DNA of 64,000 bases from Mesorhizobium sp. (lineage in GTDB: Bacteria > Pseudomonadota > Alphaproteobacteria > Rhizobiales > Rhizobiaceae): contig NZ_SUHQ01000033.1 of NCBI RefSeq assembly GCF_004962245.1, positions 1 to 64,000 of the forward strand. The letters run 5' to 3'. Positions 20,646 to 46,505 of this stretch are shown piece after piece. The translations under genes were made by a program, and so were the position numbers. Within the stretch, counting starts at the first letter, position 1; every line of letters begins with the position of its first letter. The notes beneath the pieces are model-generated. The model made no database searches and was not told the origin of the DNA. It saw only the letters and a program-made list of their open reading frames with translations.

Positions 20646-21143
20646 ATGAAGTCGAAACCCGATCCCGTGCAACTCGACAGTTGGGACGTCCGGATTCTCT
20701 CCGAGATTCAGGCAGACGGTCGGATTTCAAAAAGTGAGCTTGCAAAACGAGTTCATCTTTCGGCGTCGGCCTGTTCGGAGCGGCTCCGAGCACTCAAGGC
20801 CGCAGGGATTATTGAGGGATTCTATGCGCGACTGAGTCCTGCCCTCATTGGCGGCATGATCTTTGTGATGGTAGAGGTCGTGCTGGATCGCCATCGTCTT
20901 GAGGACCAACGACACTTCGAAACTGCAATCCAAGAGATTCCGGAAATCCTGGACTGCTGGGCAATTGGGGGGCGCGTCGATTATCTGATGCGGGTCGCAT
21001 CTCGTTCTATGGCCGCCTATCAGGATTTCATGGAGGGGCTGCTGCAGGCAGGCTTAGGGATTGATCAATACTATAGCCTTGTCGTTACGAAACCAGTGAA
21101 GTCCAATTCACCGATACCCTTGTCCGCCCTGAGGCAACGGTAA
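20646..21143 (+). CDS. Lrp/AsnC family transcriptional regulator
   Basis: LDSWDVRILSEIQADGRISKSELAKRVHLSASACSERLRALKAAGIIEGFYARLSPALIGG. Confidence 0.93.
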   Translation: MKSKPDPVQLDSWDVRILSEIQADGRISKSELAKRVHLSASACSERLRALKAAGIIEGFYARLSPALIGGMIFVMVEVVLDRHRLEDQRHFETAIQEIPEILDCWAIGGRVDYLMRVASRSMAAYQDFMEGLLQAGLGIDQYYSLVVTKPVKSNSPIPLSALRQR

Positions 21144-21949
21144 AACCCGAAAAGCTTTAGTTTCTACGGCGTTTGGCATGGATCCCGTAGATTCGTTTGC
21201 AAAAAGCGTCCATTCCGACGAAACTCAAGGGACATTTGCGGTATACTAATTGCTGGAAAAGGTGGCCGAGCGCTATCCGCCAGTTGATGGCGAGGAAGGA
21301 CGATGCGCTTGAGCAATCTGGAACCGATCAATTCCAGGAGACGGATCGAAGCAGCCATCGGACGCACTTGGCCAGCACGGTTGCGGCGAGAAGCCAAACC
21401 GGATCGTGCCTGGGGAGGAGGCGTCCATATCTGAGATGCGAAGTGCCGAAAAGTGCCTCTACAGCTATCTCAAGGGGGAACCTTCGCCCTGGATTGGCGA
21501 TCAGTGGCGATTGAGCTTAGTCGCGGTCAGCGCATCCGTGTAGGGGGCGAAATCTACAGCGAGGAATTGGCAAGCCGACGGGTAGCGGGAGTGCAAGCTG
21601 GCCCGCTCGGCCTTGGCGAGCAAACCGGCCCTCGACGCCTGCGGATATTCGGAGATCGCTCCATCTCCTTTTTACGTCGTAAATTCGTTGCTGTTCGAGA
21701 TTAGGAGATTGTCTGTCCTGTTTGACATTGCTGGTCTCCGCAGGCTTCTGAGCGAGGAGCATCGCTGAGCCGCGGTCGCGTAGGTGGGTGACAAGGCCGG
21801 TCACGCCCGCCAGCCGAGTGGTCTTCGAGAAGGTGGAGGTTGCGCTACCGGCTGGAGAGAATGGTGCCAGTTTTCACAAGACAAGGGGTCGCTTAATCGA
21901 ATGGGCGTCTAGTTCATAGATTGCGAACAGATCATGGGGGATTTGAATA

Positions 21950-22537
21950 GTGCTACTGACCGAGGCAGAGCTGAAAAAAGTTGCGAATGCCAGTCGAGGA
22001 CATAGAGCCGCATCGATCGTTCTAAAGGAAGAGATGGCCGCAGCTACAGCTAGATCGTCATTCGACGTTTTTCTGTCACATTCGTTCAAGGACGCAGAGA
22101 TCGTTCTCGGTGTGAAGCGAATTTTTGAGGAGCTTGGGTTCACTGCTTATGTAGATTGGATCGAAGATTCACAATTGGACCGCACAAAGGTCTCCTCTGC
22201 CACTGCCGAGTTGCTGCGGACCCGTATGAGGCAGTCAAAGACGCTAATCTATGTGCATTCAAACAATTCTCCAGGATCCAGATGGATGCCTTGGGAGCTT
22301 GGCTTTTTCGATGGCTTTCGGACCGCGGTAGCAGTTCTCCCCGTGGCAAAAAATTCTTCGGAAACATTCTGTGGGCAAGAATTTTTGGGCCTATACCCGT
22401 ACATCGATGGGACCGGACCTGCAGTCCTGTTTATAAACAGAGGGACCGCGTCTAGCTCAAGACTAGGCTCTGTAAGCTCGACTGCAAACGTTACGTTTGC
22501 CAAATCATGGCTTAAAGAATTTGCTGGCACAAAATAG
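21950..22537 (+). CDS. TIR-domain protein (putative NADase)
   Basis: SSFDVFLSHSFKDAEIVLGVKRIFEELGFTAYVDWIEDSQ... SRWMPWELGFFDGFRTAVAVLPV: TIR fold with conserved W..E catalytic region; GTG start, first gene of compact operon. Confidence 0.88.
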   Translation: MLLTEAELKKVANASRGHRAASIVLKEEMAAATARSSFDVFLSHSFKDAEIVLGVKRIFEELGFTAYVDWIEDSQLDRTKVSSATAELLRTRMRQSKTLIYVHSNNSPGSRWMPWELGFFDGFRTAVAVLPVAKNSSETFCGQEFLGLYPYIDGTGPAVLFINRGTASSSRLGSVSSTANVTFAKSWLKEFAGTK

Positions 22538-22549
22538 AGGTGCTCTGAA

Positions 22550-23410
22550 GTGAAATATCCTGGACTTTATAATAGCGCCGACATGGCGTCTAACGAGCAG
22601 CAGGCGACATTTCTTAGCCTGATCCGGGCAGAGTACGTTCTTCTTTTTTCGGCGTCTGTTCTCTCTTTGGATTTGTGGCCATCAAAGGCCTATTTCGGTG
22701 TGTATGCTGCGGTGTTTCTTTGCTCAATGGGAATCCTAATTTTCCGGTCGGTCACAAAGCCCGAGCAGGTCTGGTATCAAGCTAGAGCTTTGGCAGAGTC
22801 AGTAAAGACATTGACCTGGCGCTTTGCGATGCGAGCACAGCCGTTCGATGACACGCGTGCGGCCGACGCTAGAGCTGATTTTCGCAAGCTCATGGAAGGT
22901 ATCCTTGATAGCAATCGTCACCTTGGCAGCGCGTTGAGCGGCACCGATTCAGCATCCCCTCAAACAACCGACGAAATGATGTCAATAAGGGACTCCCCGC
23001 TAAAAGAACGAAAAGAGCTATATCTGCAGAAACGAATTTGCGAGCAACGTAAGTGGTACGAGAAGAAAGCGCGCTCGAACAAGAGATCCGCAAAAATTTG
23101 GATGGGCCTTGGTGTCATTGCTTACGCTCTGGGGTTCTCGTTCATCGTAGTACGCATCGCTGACCCAGCGATACCAGGCTGGCCGACAGAGCCGTTAATC
23201 GTTATTGCCGCCTCGCTTATCGGGTGGACCCAAATCAAGAAATTCAACGAATTGGCATCGGCTTACACGTTGACAGCTCACGAGATCGGATTGACTGCCG
23301 ACCTTATTACGGACGCCAACTCTGATGAGGCATTCTCCGCAGCGGTGAACGAAGCCGAACTGGCTTTCTCAAGGGAGCACACCCAGTGGGTTGCTCGTCA
23401 AAACAACTAA
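22550..23410 (+). CDS. DUF4231 / SLATT-like multi-TM protein
   Basis: 286 aa with two hydrophobic hairpins (LFSASVLSLDLWPSKAYFGVYAAVFLCSMGILIF; IWMGLGVIAYALGFSFIVV...EPLIVIAASLIGWTQIKKFNELASAYTLTAHEI) and charged linker RICEQRKWYEKKARSNKRSAK; 12 nt after TIR gene. Confidence 0.75.
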   Translation: MKYPGLYNSADMASNEQQATFLSLIRAEYVLLFSASVLSLDLWPSKAYFGVYAAVFLCSMGILIFRSVTKPEQVWYQARALAESVKTLTWRFAMRAQPFDDTRAADARADFRKLMEGILDSNRHLGSALSGTDSASPQTTDEMMSIRDSPLKERKELYLQKRICEQRKWYEKKARSNKRSAKIWMGLGVIAYALGFSFIVVRIADPAIPGWPTEPLIVIAASLIGWTQIKKFNELASAYTLTAHEIGLTADLITDANSDEAFSAAVNEAELAFSREHTQWVARQNN

Positions 23411-23419
23411 GAGACAACA

Positions 23420-23926
23420 ATGGCATACAGCGATCCGACCTATGTAATATTTGACGGCGATGAAGACGCTTGGGCATACCGCTTTATGAAAGGGTGGAAT
23501 GCCAGCGAGAATGTGAGTTTTGAATTCGCGAACGCTCACGATCTGGACAATATGACGAGCCGAGCACAGGACGAAGATTATGTTAAACGCAATCTTCGCA
23601 ACAGAATGAATGGATCGAGCCAGGTACTTGTCCTGATCGGTGAGAAAACGAAAAACCTTTTTCGCTTCGTGCGCTGGGAAATGGAATTGGCCCTTGATCT
23701 AGGTCTGCCGATAATCGCAGCAAACCTTAACGGCTCGCGACAACAAGATGCGAGCTGTCCGCCCATCATCAGGGACAAATGTGTTGTGCACGTGCCGTTC
23801 AAGATGAAGGCTATCAAGCACGCGCTTGCCAATTGGCCGAGCGAATTTCATCGGCTTTCAAACGCTCAGCGTGGCGATGGCGCCAGGAGCTATGGCGAAA
23901 GCACCTATCGGGATCTCGGCTTATAA
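23420..23926 (+). CDS. ThsB-like TIR domain protein (DUF1863/MTH538-like)
   Basis: VIFDGDEDAWAYRFMKGWNAS...NVSFEFANAHDLDNM...VKRNLRNRMNGSSQVLVLIGEKTKNLFRFVRWEMELALDLGLPIIAANLNG; 9 nt after upstream gene. Confidence 0.8.
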   Translation: MAYSDPTYVIFDGDEDAWAYRFMKGWNASENVSFEFANAHDLDNMTSRAQDEDYVKRNLRNRMNGSSQVLVLIGEKTKNLFRFVRWEMELALDLGLPIIAANLNGSRQQDASCPPIIRDKCVVHVPFKMKAIKHALANWPSEFHRLSNAQRGDGARSYGESTYRDLGL

Positions 23927-24590: not shown

Positions 24591-24839
24591 CGAGACGAAT
24601 GTGATTTTCCCCCTGATCACCTGCGTTACCCCCTGGGGAAGGGCAAGACCGATCCGGACCATCAGAATGTAAAGGGATGACCGGCAGTTCGGCGGAACAT
24701 GGCCGGCGGCGCTCTATCGTGCCTCGTGCGGCCGGCGGGAACAGCATCCCGAGCGCTATTCATCCTTCAATATTGCCCGTGACCTTGCCCCTCAGATCTA
24801 ATCCGGTTTGAAGTTCGTTCTGGCCCATCGAGAGGACCA

Positions 24840-25110
24840 GGACCGAAACGTAGCCGCTTCTCTGAAGAGCAGATCATCGGAATTTGAAGGAATTTGAGGC
24901 CGGGGTATCGGTTGCCGATCTGTGCCGCACACACCGGGTCGGCGACGCCTCGATTTACAACTGGAAGGCCCGCTTCGGCGGGATGGATGTCTCCGAGGCT
25001 CGGCGACTGAAGGCTCTGGAGGACGAGGACACCCGGCTGAAGCGGCTTCTGGCCGACGCCATGCTCGACAATGCCGCGTTGAAGGATCTTATGGGAAAGA
25101 ATGTATGGTC
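24840..25110 (+). pseudogene. IS3-family OrfA, 5' part of interrupted element
   Basis: RFSEEQIIGI(stop)KEFEAGVSVADLCRTHRVGDASIYNWKARFGGMDVSEARRLKALEDEDTRLKRLLADAMLDNAALKDLMGKN. Confidence 0.85.
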
Positions 25111-25343
25111 CGCCCCGTCCGTGCAAGGGTTCACGACATCGCCGACGACGATTCCAGTTGCATAAATGTATCCGGCCTCTCGCGAGTGGACTGCTGTTGC
25201 AGCCAGGCCATGATGAGATCCGCGCACGCCGTTCCCAATAAATGGTTCGGGCACGAAGCCCGCTTTTTTGCACAGGGCTTACGGCATGCTGATCCACTGT
25301 TTCGTCATCGCTATTCCCGAGCCTTGCAATCGAGCCGGACGCG

Positions 25344-26390
25344 TCAGATGAATACAGGGTCCCTGCGTTCGTAGAGCGCCCCCGGCTTGGTCAGGACAAC
25401 CCAAACAATGCGCGCCATCTTGGCGGCAAGCGCGACAACAGCCTTGTTCGGGTGCATTCGGCTCTGCAGCCCATCAAGCCAGCTTCCCAGGCGATCCCGG
25501 GTTCGATCCAGGTGACGAAAGCAGGATCGCGCGCCATGAACGAGGAGCTTGCGGACGTAGCGGTTCCCGCGCTTGCTGATACCGAGGAGCTTCTGCTTGC
25601 CACCGGTCGAGTGTTCTCGCGGGACGAGGCCCAGCCATGCGGCCAGATCGCGAGCCTTCTGGAACTGGCGTCCGCCGCCAACAGCTGCCAGAAGTGCCGT
25701 GGCACCCAATGCGCCAATTCCTGGAATCGTCATGAGCCGACGGGCAACATCGTCTCCATCTGCGATCGCAGCGATCTCCCTCGTCACATCGCTGATTCGC
25801 TGCTCCAGCCGGCGCAGGTCGGCAAACAAATCCGTGAGCAGTTTGCGCATCGCCGGCGAGAGGTCGTTCGATAGGTCGTCGAGAACCATCGGCAGGTCGA
25901 GCTTGAACAGGCCTGCTCCCTGTCGCAGTGCTATGCCGTATTCCAGGCAGAACGCTCGCATCTGATTAATGAGGCGGGTTCGGGTGCCGATCATCTGGTC
26001 GCGCACTCGATGCAAGGCCTGGAGGTCGGCTTGCTCCTCGCTCTTGATCGCGCGCATTGTTGGTCGCGTGGCGGCTTCGGCGATGGCCTCGGCATCGATG
26101 ATGTCGCTCTTGTTCGACTTCACGTAGGGCTTCACGAACTGCGCCGGGATCAGGCGAACCTTGTGCCCCAACGCATGCAGTCTCCTGGCGATCCATTGTG
26201 ATCCTGCGCACGATTCCATCCCCACGATCGCCGGCGCTGCTCGCTCAAAGAAACGCAGCAACGTATCGCGTCGGAAGCGAGCCCGCTGGACGGGCTCGCC
26301 GCCGCTGTCCAAGCCGACGACGTGGAAGACGTTCTTGCTGATATCGATGCCATAGATGGCCGCAGGGCACGGCGCATTGCGTAGGGACAT
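25344..26390 (-). CDS. IS110-family (IS1111-like) transposase, intact ORF
   Basis: 348 aa; YGIDISKNVFHVVGLDSGG..., IPAQFVKPYVKSNKSDIIDAEAIAEA, Tnp_20 domain TIPGIGALGATALLAAVGGGRQFQKARDLAAWLGLVPREHSTGGKQKLLGISKRGNRYVRKLLVHGARS. Confidence 0.95.
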   Translation of the reverse strand: MSLRNAPCPAAIYGIDISKNVFHVVGLDSGGEPVQRARFRRDTLLRFFERAAPAIVGMESCAGSQWIARRLHALGHKVRLIPAQFVKPYVKSNKSDIIDAEAIAEAATRPTMRAIKSEEQADLQALHRVRDQMIGTRTRLINQMRAFCLEYGIALRQGAGLFKLDLPMVLDDLSNDLSPAMRKLLTDLFADLRRLEQRISDVTREIAAIADGDDVARRLMTIPGIGALGATALLAAVGGGRQFQKARDLAAWLGLVPREHSTGGKQKLLGISKRGNRYVRKLLVHGARSCFRHLDRTRDRLGSWLDGLQSRMHPNKAVVALAAKMARIVWVVLTKPGALYERRDPVFI

Positions 26391-26466
26391 TCCAACCTCC
26401 TTTGCTTGACTGACGAATAATGGGCGGTGAGGACGGGGCGGACCATCCCATCAGAGCGTGATGATT

Positions 26467-27413
26467 TTAGGTTGGGGCATAGCCGGCCTCGGTGAAGTAG
26501 TTGGCGCATTCCTTTGATGTGACGGTGTCGAGGATTTGGCCGATGGCGCTGCAGACGGCGTCGGTGGTGCGTCTGGCGGCCTTTCGCAGCAGGTGCTTGA
26601 GCTTGGCGAAGAGCAGCTCGATTGGATTCAGGTCCGGCGAGTATTTGGGCAGGAAGAAGAGCTTGGCGCCGGCTTTGCGGATGGCGTGCCGGACGGCCTT
26701 GCCCTTGTGCGAGCCGAGATTGTCGATGACGCCGATGTCGCCCGGCTTGAGGGTGGGCAGGAGCACCTTCTCGACGTAGAGCCGGAAGCGCTCGCCGTTG
26801 ATCGGCCCGTCGATGAGCCATGGGGCGTCGACGCGGTCGTGGCGCATGGCAGCTAGGAAGGTCATGGTCTTCCAGCGTCGATGCGGCACCTTGGCTTTCA
26901 GGCGCTGGCCGCGCGGCGCCCAGCCCCGGAGCGGAGCCATGTTGGTCTTGGTCCAGGTCTCGTCGATGAAGACCAGGCGGGAGGGGGCGATCCGGCCCTG
27001 ATGGGCCTTCCACTGCGCCCGCCGACGCGCCACATCGGGCCGATCCTGCTCGGCGGCGATCAGCGTCTTTTTTTGTGCGTCAGCTTCTCGGCACGGACGA
27101 ACTCCCACACCGAGCGGTAGTCGACCTTCAGCCCGCGCTCGGCCAGCTCTGCCACAAGGCCGCGCAGCGTGAAGTCTGTATTGCGGCAGCGCTCGATAAG
27201 CCAGTCGCGGTGCGCACCGGCAATCTTCTTCGGCCGTCGCCCGCCCATCTTGCCGGGCTCCACCATGCCCGTTTCCCGCAGCCGGCGAACCCACCGGATG
27301 ACCGTGCTGATGCCGACCCCAAAACGCGCCGCCGCCTGCCGCCGCGACAGGCCCTCCTGCTCAACCGCACCAACAACCCGCTCGCGCAGATCCATCGAAT
27401 AAGGCTTGCCCAT
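26467..27413 (-). CDS. IS630-family transposase encoded by two overlapping frames (probable -1 frameshift at A7G)
   Basis: ORF1 27060..27413 (MGKPYSMDLRERVVGAVEQEGLSRRQAAARFGVGISTVIRWV...) and ORF2 26467..27294 (LVFIDETWTKTNMAPLRGW... DDE motif); overlap contains A AAA AAA G on minus strand (27074-27067). Confidence 0.9.
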
Positions 27414-27539
27414 CCATGCTGGCCTCCATCCCCAGCCAGTCCCCGCTGATTTGGGAATCCCCCTTCGATTCAGCCTCTCTTCATCCCGCTCTAATGGTGA
27501 CGCCCGCGGCCAAGCGGAAAGCTGTCGCTCGCCTGAAGG

Positions 27540-27850
27540 AAAGCTTCGGGATGAGGAACGGCGGGCATGTAAAGCCATCGGCTGTTGCCGCATGACGGTT
27601 CGCTACGAGACCAGCAGGCCGGACCGCGAGGTTCGCTACAAACCGCGCGGCCGCACTCCCAAATCGCCTGGCAGACACCGGCCGAGTTCGCCAGCACCTT
27701 CAATCCGCGACGGTCGCTCGCGCTGCGCTATGCCAAAGGCTCCGCGCCAGCGCCCGTCGCTTCACCCGCCCAGCAGGGCACAACCCACGCCGGAAACGAA
27801 CTCAAAACTGGATAGAAACTGGCGGCAACGTCAAGCCCAGCCCATCTGGC
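27540..27850 (+). pseudogene. IS3-family OrfB remnant, 3' part of interrupted element
   Basis: RRACKAIGCCRMTVRYETSRPD (OrfB start) and PAEFAS...GSAPAPVASPAQQGTTHAGNELKTG (OrfB end) in shifted frames. Confidence 0.75.
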
Positions 27851-44419: not shown

Positions 44420-45256
44420 TTAGGTCCACCAGAGAACAAGATCAGGCCGGGCAAATCCGAAAAAGCAATTCAGCACCAGGCGACGCTTTCCGTCTGATTG
44501 ACCGGTAACCCCGTGAACGAAGCCGCCATCGATTAGGGCGATATCCCCGGCCTTGAGCTGGAACTCGCGGCAAGGGAAGGCCTCAAGATAGGCTGCCGAA
44601 TAGGGATATCCAGTGGTCTCCACACCCTGCGACTTTCGGTCCGCAACTGTCGGCTTATGGCTCCAGAGCCTCAGATTGCCCCCGTTCTCGGACATGCTGG
44701 GATAGAGGTTGAGCGCTGCGACCGTATTGTGCGCCACCGCAGAAAGCTCGTAATCATCGCCAGCACGTAAGACTTGAGCGACATCGTCGTGGGGATCCAA
44801 GGAAAACGTGCCACTGCCTGACCAACTGAGAGCGCGACAGACGTTGGCCTGACCGCGTTCCGAACGGGCGAGCCGCAATTCAATGCCCTGGTTGTGAAGC
44901 TCTCGCTTCAACGCGCCGAATATTGCTCGGACCGGGTCAACCAAATTCTTAAAAAGGGCCTCGACGTAAGGTCGCGCAGCTTCCGCATCTGCGAAATAGG
45001 TGGCTGCATCCTTCCTGTAGTGAGATGCGCCGACATATTGTCCGGGCACACCATCTCTACGCTCTCTGAGACCGGAGCTTCCAATAAAGTTCGTGGTGAT
45101 CTCCTCGGCTACTTCGGTGCTGAAAGCTTGCTTGACGTGCAGTGCGGTGAGCTCACCTTTCAGGACCGAGATGATCTCCGCCGTGTTGATCGACCCGGTC
45201 CGTTCTTTGATTGAAACCGGGGAGATGGCTGGCACCTGAGTTATCTGCTTAGGCAT
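44420..45256 (-). CDS. 2-oxoglutarate/Fe(II)-dependent oxygenase-like protein
   Basis: SGSGTFSLDPHDDVAQVLRAGDDYELSAV (HxD), then LIDGGFVHGVTGQSDGKRRLVLNCFFGF (distal His/Arg). Confidence 0.7.
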   Translation of the reverse strand: MPKQITQVPAISPVSIKERTGSINTAEIISVLKGELTALHVKQAFSTEVAEEITTNFIGSSGLRERRDGVPGQYVGASHYRKDAATYFADAEAARPYVEALFKNLVDPVRAIFGALKRELHNQGIELRLARSERGQANVCRALSWSGSGTFSLDPHDDVAQVLRAGDDYELSAVAHNTVAALNLYPSMSENGGNLRLWSHKPTVADRKSQGVETTGYPYSAAYLEAFPCREFQLKAGDIALIDGGFVHGVTGQSDGKRRLVLNCFFGFARPDLVLWWT

Positions 45257-46505
45257 TGTCTTGCTCCTGTAGTGCGTGATCAAGGATGGTGATGCCACGA
45301 TCGAGTTCGGCATCGGTGATGGTTATCGGCGGGAGGACTTTGATAACGTCGCGATTTGGCCCCGAGGATTCGATAAGAAGGCCATTTTCGAATGCGACAT
45401 CGTGCACGCGGCCGACAAGTGCCGGTGAACGGCATTTCAGGCCGGCCATCAGGCCGCGCCCGCGCTTTTGTTCGATGTATCTGGGAAATTTCGCAACGAG
45501 GCGATCGAGGTGCGTTTGCAGCCTGACGGCTGTCCGCTCGATACCTGCAGTAAATTTTCTATCCGACCACATCTTGCACATGGCTCCTGCCGTCACGAAG
45601 GCGAAATTGTTGCCTCTGAATGTCCCGCTATGCTCTCCCGGCTTCCATATGTCCAAGTCGGGTCGAATCAGAACGATGGACAACGGACTACCTGAGCCGC
45701 TTAGGGACTTGGAAAGACACACAATGTCCGGTTTGATTTTTGCGGACTCGAATGAAAAGAAATCGCCAGTTCGGCCCGCACCCGCCTGAATATCGTCGAC
45801 GATAAAAACAATGCCGTGAGTACGGCAAATGCGCTGAATTTCCGTGAGCCAAGCTGCAGATGCGGCGTTCATGCCGCCTTCCGCCTGGATCGTCTCCAGA
45901 ATGATTGCGGCAGGCTTTTCTATGCCGCTCCCCGGGTCGCTCAAAACGTGGTCGATGTAACTGGCGGAATCGAAAGCTTGGCTCGGATAGCCGTCATAGG
46001 GAACACGGATCACATCGTGGCGAGCAACGCCTCCCAGTTCCCTGGTTGAGGCCGAGCCCGACACCGCCAGAGAGCCGAGCGACATGCCGTGGAACGCATT
46101 CGTAAAGGCCATCACGCTCGAGCGGCCGGTGTATTTTCGCGCCAGCGCCAGCGCCGCTTCGTTGGCGTTCGTGCCGGTCGGGCCGGGAAACTGAATCTTG
46201 TACGAAAGACCTCTGGGTTTCAGGATCCAATCGACGAACCCTTCAATGAAGCCACGCTTTGCGGCCGTATGCATATCGAGCGACAGAAGAACGTTCTCAC
46301 CGACGAGATATTCAATTGCTGGCGCCATGATATCCGGATTGTTGTGCCCGTAATTAAGCGCCCCGGACCCAACTAGGAAGTCGATATATGCGTTACCGGT
46401 CTCGTCCCAGATGGTCGCCCCAAGTGCCCTCGTAAAGACCGCGGGAAACGACCGTCCATAGCGACGAACGTTGGACTCATGGGCCGTGAAAGGGTCGGTG
46501 TTCAT
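45249..46505 (-). CDS. Diaminobutyrate-2-oxoglutarate aminotransferase-like (EctB family, class III)
   Basis: ESNVRRYGRSFPAVFTRALGATIWDETGNAYIDFLVGSGALNYGHNNP; PLP-Lys region PDIVCLSKSLSGSGSPLSIVLIRPDLDIWKPGEHSGTFRGNNFAFVTA; overlaps the downstream oxygenase gene by 8 nt. Confidence 0.9.
   Translation of the reverse strand: MNTDPFTAHESNVRRYGRSFPAVFTRALGATIWDETGNAYIDFLVGSGALNYGHNNPDIMAPAIEYLVGENVLLSLDMHTAAKRGFIEGFVDWILKPRGLSYKIQFPGPTGTNANEAALALARKYTGRSSVMAFTNAFHGMSLGSLAVSGSASTRELGGVARHDVIRVPYDGYPSQAFDSASYIDHVLSDPGSGIEKPAAIILETIQAEGGMNAASAAWLTEIQRICRTHGIVFIVDDIQAGAGRTGDFFSFESAKIKPDIVCLSKSLSGSGSPLSIVLIRPDLDIWKPGEHSGTFRGNNFAFVTAGAMCKMWSDRKFTAGIERTAVRLQTHLDRLVAKFPRYIEQKRGRGLMAGLKCRSPALVGRVHDVAFENGLLIESSGPNRDVIKVLPPITITDAELDRGITILDHALQEQDNA

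Follow-up and report, generated by a model that had tools for sequence, protein, structure and literature searches.

A TIR and tandem-SLATT gene cassette in Mesorhizobium as a candidate Thoeris-like anti-phage system

A three-gene cassette of Mesorhizobium sp. rather probably encodes a Thoeris-like anti-phage system in which, judging by analogy with known Thoeris loci, a tandem-SLATT pore would stand in the place of ThsA and would let the membrane leak upon a nucleotide trigger. Of the readings weighed below, we favour the Thoeris-like one, in which the SLATT protein would act as the membrane effector, and from the same analogy we infer signal synthesis, ligand binding, membrane damage and a phage trigger. 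The family of TIR genes paired with a membrane effector, to which the cassette belongs, is widespread and apparently uncatalogued.

The cassette lies in a stretch of 64,000 nucleotides (the window) and consists of three intact open reading frames on the forward strand: gene 1 (21950-22537, 195 aa), gene 2 (22550-23410, 286 aa) and gene 3 (23420-23926, 168 aa), separated by 12 and 9 nt, exactly as a preliminary description of this DNA had placed them. Pfam, PADLOC and NCBIfam agree on the nature of the three genes. That description had also seen borders of decayed sequence and IS debris, and these were found. On the left, an asnC/lrp-type regulator gene (20646-21143, forward strand) forms the anchor of the insertion site and is followed by the decayed 5′ part of an aminotransferase gene (21154-21450, forward strand), of which relatives have an intact copy to the right of the cassette. 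On the right, reading by eye reveals transposase-like ORFs and IS debris from about 24.8 kb (24767-27593). When the window is compared with four other Mesorhizobium copies, dN/dS for the three genes lies between 0 and 0.42, although some of the comparisons involve few changes; the cassette reading frames are intact and under purifying selection. Because these ratios are low and synteny is conserved, chance ORFs can be ruled out. Elsewhere in the window, ORFs on the reverse strand (44420-46505) resemble, by eye, an ectoine hydroxylase and a diaminobutyrate-type aminotransferase.

The middle gene had been likened to DUF4231/SLATT. The SLATT assignment holds (DUF4231, 2e-15), although not as a single domain: Pfam finds SLATT_3 (3.6e-39, 134.9 bits) followed by SLATT_1 (2.6e-31, 108.6 bits), both above the curated cut-off (26.3), and NCBIfam matches both families as well. 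A profile comparison did not support the two SLATT halves as an internal repeat (hhalign probability 0.5%). Four transmembrane (TM) helices are predicted by hydropathy, all on the forward strand: TM1 (residues 22-40, 22613-22669), TM2 (47-65, 22688-22744), TM3 (183-201, 23096-23152) and TM4 (209-227, 23174-23230), the last being clear only in the family average. The AlphaFold2 model, built on an alignment of 48 sequences in which the relatives share 37-95% identity with the window protein, is confident and all-helical (pLDDT 92.1, pTM 0.85). The search for a PDB relative returned only repeat-protein noise by sequence and nothing by fold at E <= 0.001. Against the PADLOC models (2023 library) gene 2 gave no match, and the proposed effector is thus missing from that library.

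The residues that are invariant among the 48 sequences lie mostly beside the membrane segments. They include W75, Y76, R79, A80, E83, S84, K86, T87 and W90, within a near-invariant stretch past TM2 (residues 75-90, WY..RALAES.KT.TW; 22772-22819, forward strand) that is a candidate ligand-binding or gating surface, as well as R162, Q166, W169, Y170 and N177. Near the C-terminus, F273-S-R-E-H-T-Q-W280 is invariant within a near-invariant motif, FSREHTQWVA (residues 273-282; 23366-23395, forward strand). From this conservation, the helices concerned may house a putative ligand site or gate. In gene 2, neither a macro nor a SLOG domain nor any other known ligand domain was recognised, and since there is also no solved structural relative, signal binding by gene 2 is an assumption that we draw from the conserved helices and from published SLATT predictions.

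Both flanking genes were described beforehand as TIR genes, and both calls were borne out. For gene 1, the TIR_2 match (5.5e-6) scores 27.3 bits alone, against a gathering score of 28, and 28.2, above the cut-off, in a separate search; PADLOC assigns the protein to ThsB (PDLC00422, 2.6e-64), and it matches the solved TIR protein 8btn (1.1e-42). The genome of the window has just one further TIR_2 match, which lies within a 466-aa frame (G000:C43:95673-95999; L001). Some relatives of gene 1, 48-52% identical to it, belong to or adjoin type I Thoeris genes. On Sinorhizobium medicae pMl2, the order is TIR-SIR2-TIR followed by the gene-1-like gene, and in Indioceanicola the relative adjoins TIR and SIR2 genes; the SIR2 proteins in both are of the SIR2_2 plus STALD kind. 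Two other relatives sit among other TIR genes without SIR2. On an Acinetobacter plasmid (L202:3923-6769), an operon of the order TIR-TIR-TPR-S protein-TIR begins with a gene-1-like TIR.

Gene 3 had been called a divergent TIR of the ThsB type, and it matches ThsB_TIR in Pfam (1.2e-18) and ThsB in PADLOC (PDLC00429, 5.6e-56). Its sequence matches EcThsB2 (8v6t) over the full length including the C-terminal tail (7.1e-23), and EcThsB2 is the best superposition of its model among PDB entries (TM 0.85), such that both the overall fold and the tail are EcThsB2-like. The fold comparison that had been proposed for the cassette thus supports gene 3, while gene 2 is without a PDB relative. The WE-motif glutamate is retained in both TIRs, as the predicted catalytic Glu116 of gene 1 (WMPWELG; 22295-22297, forward strand; aligned with 8btn) and Glu87 of gene 3 (VRWEME; 23678-23680, forward strand). 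A hallmark of the EcThsB2 class is an active-site tyrosine that forms a hydrogen bond with the catalytic glutamate, and EcThsB2 itself, the closest solved relative of gene 3, showed no NADase activity in vitro (PMC11204291). Tyr8 in strand A of gene 3 (23441-23443, forward strand) aligns, in sequence rather than in superposed geometry, with some strand-A tyrosine of EcThsB2 and is a possible counterpart of the active-site residue. In the Doron data set, this class (subfamily 9) is exclusive to TM-macro ThsA systems (PMC11204291), a pairing from which gene 3 departs, as its partner is a SLATT protein. Given that gene 1 has relatives in type I Thoeris operons and that gene 3 is EcThsB2-like, the cassette brings together ThsB types of two Thoeris branches and sets them around an effector of another kind.

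These matches supply the ThsB component of a Thoeris system, whereas the adjacent gene, which in Thoeris would encode a SIR2-STALD or TM-macro ThsA, here encodes the tandem SLATT. ThsA_Macro (PF20016) was not found in the genome of the window by a family search that was positive in 3 of 399 genomes. STALD was also not found in that genome, in a search that had no positive control and gave no match in the control genomes, so that its absence is weakly supported. Type II Thoeris (ThsB plus TM-macro ThsA, with a His-ADPR signal) resembles the cassette in its membrane-perturbing effector beside one or two ThsB TIRs, including the EcThsB2 kind; the proposed effector of the cassette differs in being a four-TM tandem SLATT without a macro domain. 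The family of gene 1 provides an extra ThsB in type I operons (ThsB plus SIR2-STALD ThsA), but the cassette locus lacks a SIR2-STALD effector. In Pfam searches, none of the three cassette genes matched a protease, as in the caspase-like effector of type IV Thoeris, or a CBASS CD-NTase. SMODS/SLATT and other SLATT conflict systems were reportedly described by Burroughs et al. in 2015, with SLATT as a predicted nucleotide-activated pore; the cassette shares this predicted pore, but its nucleotide source would be a TIR and not a CD-NTase. TIR-SLATT neighbourhoods are already known from firmicute phages, where a TIR gene occurs in a conserved neighbourhood with a 2TM SLATT membrane protein (PMC9503650). 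The present family differs in carrying the tandem SLATT_3 plus SLATT_1 and in residing on bacterial chromosomes and plasmids. An origin of the cassette from phage was considered and rejected, as this SLATT was unmatched in 50,697 phage records.

How the pair is conserved was assessed in loci fetched with the gene 2 protein alone. A TIR gene is adjacent to SLATT in 75 of 80 loci, and in 44 of the 48 that remain after removal of loci more than 80% identical. By position in this non-redundant set, TIRs account for 35/47 genes at -1 and 9/45 at +1 (44/92 together), compared to 8/320 at a distance of at least three genes (Fisher 2e-25, which is indicative only, since the loci are related). Most of the 48 loci come from Pseudomonadota. 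Bacteroidota, Thermodesulfobacteriota, Calditrichota, Myxococcota, Actinomycetota and Verrucomicrobiota contribute a few, and the locus from Calditrichota is among those without an adjacent TIR. All nine partner TIRs sampled from different branches score above the curated ThsB_TIR cut-off. Homologues are common on plasmids, and on those of Klebsiella and Vibrio (L198, L199) the TIR gene is convergent with the SLATT tandem and still adjacent to it. In L198, the pair is flanked by IS26 copies.

In the tree, the window groups with L023, L024 and L031, all of which have the gene-3-type TIR downstream of SLATT. Upstream of SLATT stands gene 1 in the window and another ThsB in L024; L023 and L031 have nothing of the kind there. 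Since these near relatives keep the downstream TIR and differ upstream, the core is a TIR plus the tandem SLATT, and the second TIR is variable. The TIR + SLATT + TIR layout had been put forward as one not recognised among named systems. This needs to be qualified on two counts, in that the conserved unit is the TIR and tandem-SLATT pair and that the TIR-SLATT association as such had been reported (PMC9503650). Likewise, conserved three-gene synteny, which was to be looked for, is found widely for the pair, while the triple with gene 1 amounts to one insertion in Mesorhizobium.

A match to gene 2 is present in 31 of 147 Mesorhizobium genomes, in 29 of them at the asnC site according to a comparison of positions with the list of asnC genes. 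Among the loci seen, only those of Mesorhizobium have the triple with this gene 1, at one site and in 29 of the 147 genomes; as these 29 copies share the site, they count as one insertion. Several copies are frameshifted, and broken ones occur in L026, L041 and, among the searched genomes, G470, G472, G473, G478 and G481. When 399 genomes from the phylum were scanned for the SLATT_3 family, 12 matches emerged, four of them in Mesorhizobium and the rest weak and mostly to other SLATT proteins. One genome that has the cassette (G484, contig C144; L207) contains a second, divergent SLATT tandem (47% identical), followed by a gene-3-like TIR.

Across Mesorhizobium, 43 sites between the anchor genes were inspected. 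The interval is empty in 24 (106-170 bp between the anchors) and holds the TIR and tandem-SLATT cassette in three. Nine sites carry an E2/ThiF-JAB operon of the kind found with multiubiquitin (by Pfam in L146, by matching ORFs in the others), one has ThiF plus Prok-JAB, two have Prok-E2_C/ThiF and one has an AAA_21/SMC-like operon; two hold no recognised system, and in one (L184) the interval has collapsed. PADLOC relates the E1 and JAB proteins at the site to its E1-E2 and JAB models. The asnC-aminotransferase interval (20646-21450 in the window; L145-L187) therefore fits the pattern of a defence hotspot, in line with the association with defence islands that the preliminary description had wanted examined.

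In rhizobia, the SLATT gene also occurs in a larger setting. In nine loci (L024, L025, L033, L045, L046, L197, L204, L205, L206), PfkB, a TIR-TGT fusion, an OGG-like glycosylase and QueC are encoded near SLATT, usually along with a ThsB TIR carrying MGGG at its N-terminus or close to it. The domains were checked by Pfam in L197 (555-6378) and by similarity to L197 in the other eight; PADLOC names QueC and TGT in the sister loci, and in L033 the QueC block is on the other strand. QueC, TGT and OGG are the ancillary genes of type IV CBASS. The sister loci carry the like, but with a TIR plus SLATT core in place of the CD-NTase, and the window holds no remnants of the module. As a matter of speculation, QueC may act on the glycine-rich N-terminus of the partner TIR. 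In L033 (6871-9717), moreover, SLATT precedes a CAP12/PCTIR-type TIR protein, a TRAFs-binding/TPR-S protein and a ThsB_TIR.

On the Thoeris-like reading, one or both ThsB-type TIRs would detect infection and turn NAD+ into an ADP-ribose-derived signal. The tandem-SLATT protein would bind this signal, whereupon its four TM helices would oligomerise or open, thereby breaching the inner membrane; infected cells would be killed or stalled, and phage production would halt with them. We propose these steps because in Thoeris, ThsB makes an ADPR-derived signal and TM-macro effectors perturb the membrane (PMC12847820, PMC11204291), and because SLATT is predicted to be a nucleotide-responsive pore (PMC7159879, PMC9503650). 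Several observations count against this reading: gene 2 has no recognisable ligand domain, its SLATT had no match among the phage records, EcThsB2 showed no NADase activity in vitro, gene 1 does not adjoin SLATT outside Mesorhizobium in the loci seen, and several Mesorhizobium copies are frameshifted.

It is quite possible, if somewhat short of an even chance, that the working system consists of SLATT and gene 3 only, with gene 1 either a passenger or an extra sensor that Mesorhizobium picked up on one occasion. The pair is kept outside Mesorhizobium, where no gene-1 relative lies next to SLATT in the loci seen, such that gene 1 may be non-essential; L023 and L031 make do with SLATT and then a gene-3-type TIR, and TIRs of the gene 1 type are extra ThsB genes elsewhere. 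However, the intact Mesorhizobium copies examined have kept the reading frame of gene 1, its spacing and its purifying selection, and a second upstream TIR, of another type, is likewise present in L024, L025 and L197, which are sister loci, much as in multi-ThsB Thoeris systems.

That the TIRs are themselves the effectors and act by NAD+ depletion, while the SLATT protein serves as sensor or anchor in the membrane, seems unlikely to us. TIR effectors can deplete NAD+ directly (PMC12847820), and the want of a recognisable ligand-binding domain in gene 2 would suit such a role, yet diverse short ThsB-type TIRs around one conserved membrane partner form the pattern of exchangeable signal makers with a fixed effector, and a published prediction makes SLATT a pore that responds to nucleotides (PMC7159879). 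Still less probable is a cassette that is a decaying remnant, or one that serves the stability of plasmids or islands instead of phage defence. The pseudogenes and IS debris around it, the broken copies in Mesorhizobium and the frequent plasmid homologues would fit this, but in the window all three ORFs are unbroken and show low dN/dS, and at this site the cassette alternates with defence-type operons.

Beyond the Thoeris-like reading of this cassette, we tentatively suggest, while leaning against it for now, that TIR plus tandem SLATT makes up a distinct and broad Thoeris type. In it, a four-TM helical protein without macro or SLOG domain would be both receptor and pore and would be fed by several exchangeable ThsB subfamilies, EcThsB2-like ones included; rhizobial sisters would add QueC, OGG and TGT as a module similar to the one in type IV CBASS, with QueC perhaps acting on the MGGG stretch of the TIR. 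Thoeris type III (PMC12390725), whose composition is not given there, could be the same system. The defence-type hotspot and the sister operon bearing QueC, OGG and TGT point to further unexplored modules. Since enteric plasmids carry homologues, tests in laboratory strains of E. coli are practical, and the family would make it possible to test directly whether SLATT proteins are nucleotide-gated pores, as has long been predicted. If the proposal is true, TIR signalling immunity would gain a membrane effector without a recognisable ligand-binding domain, and TIRs of the EcThsB2 type would prove to serve another effector besides the macro-domain ones to which they have been described as tied.
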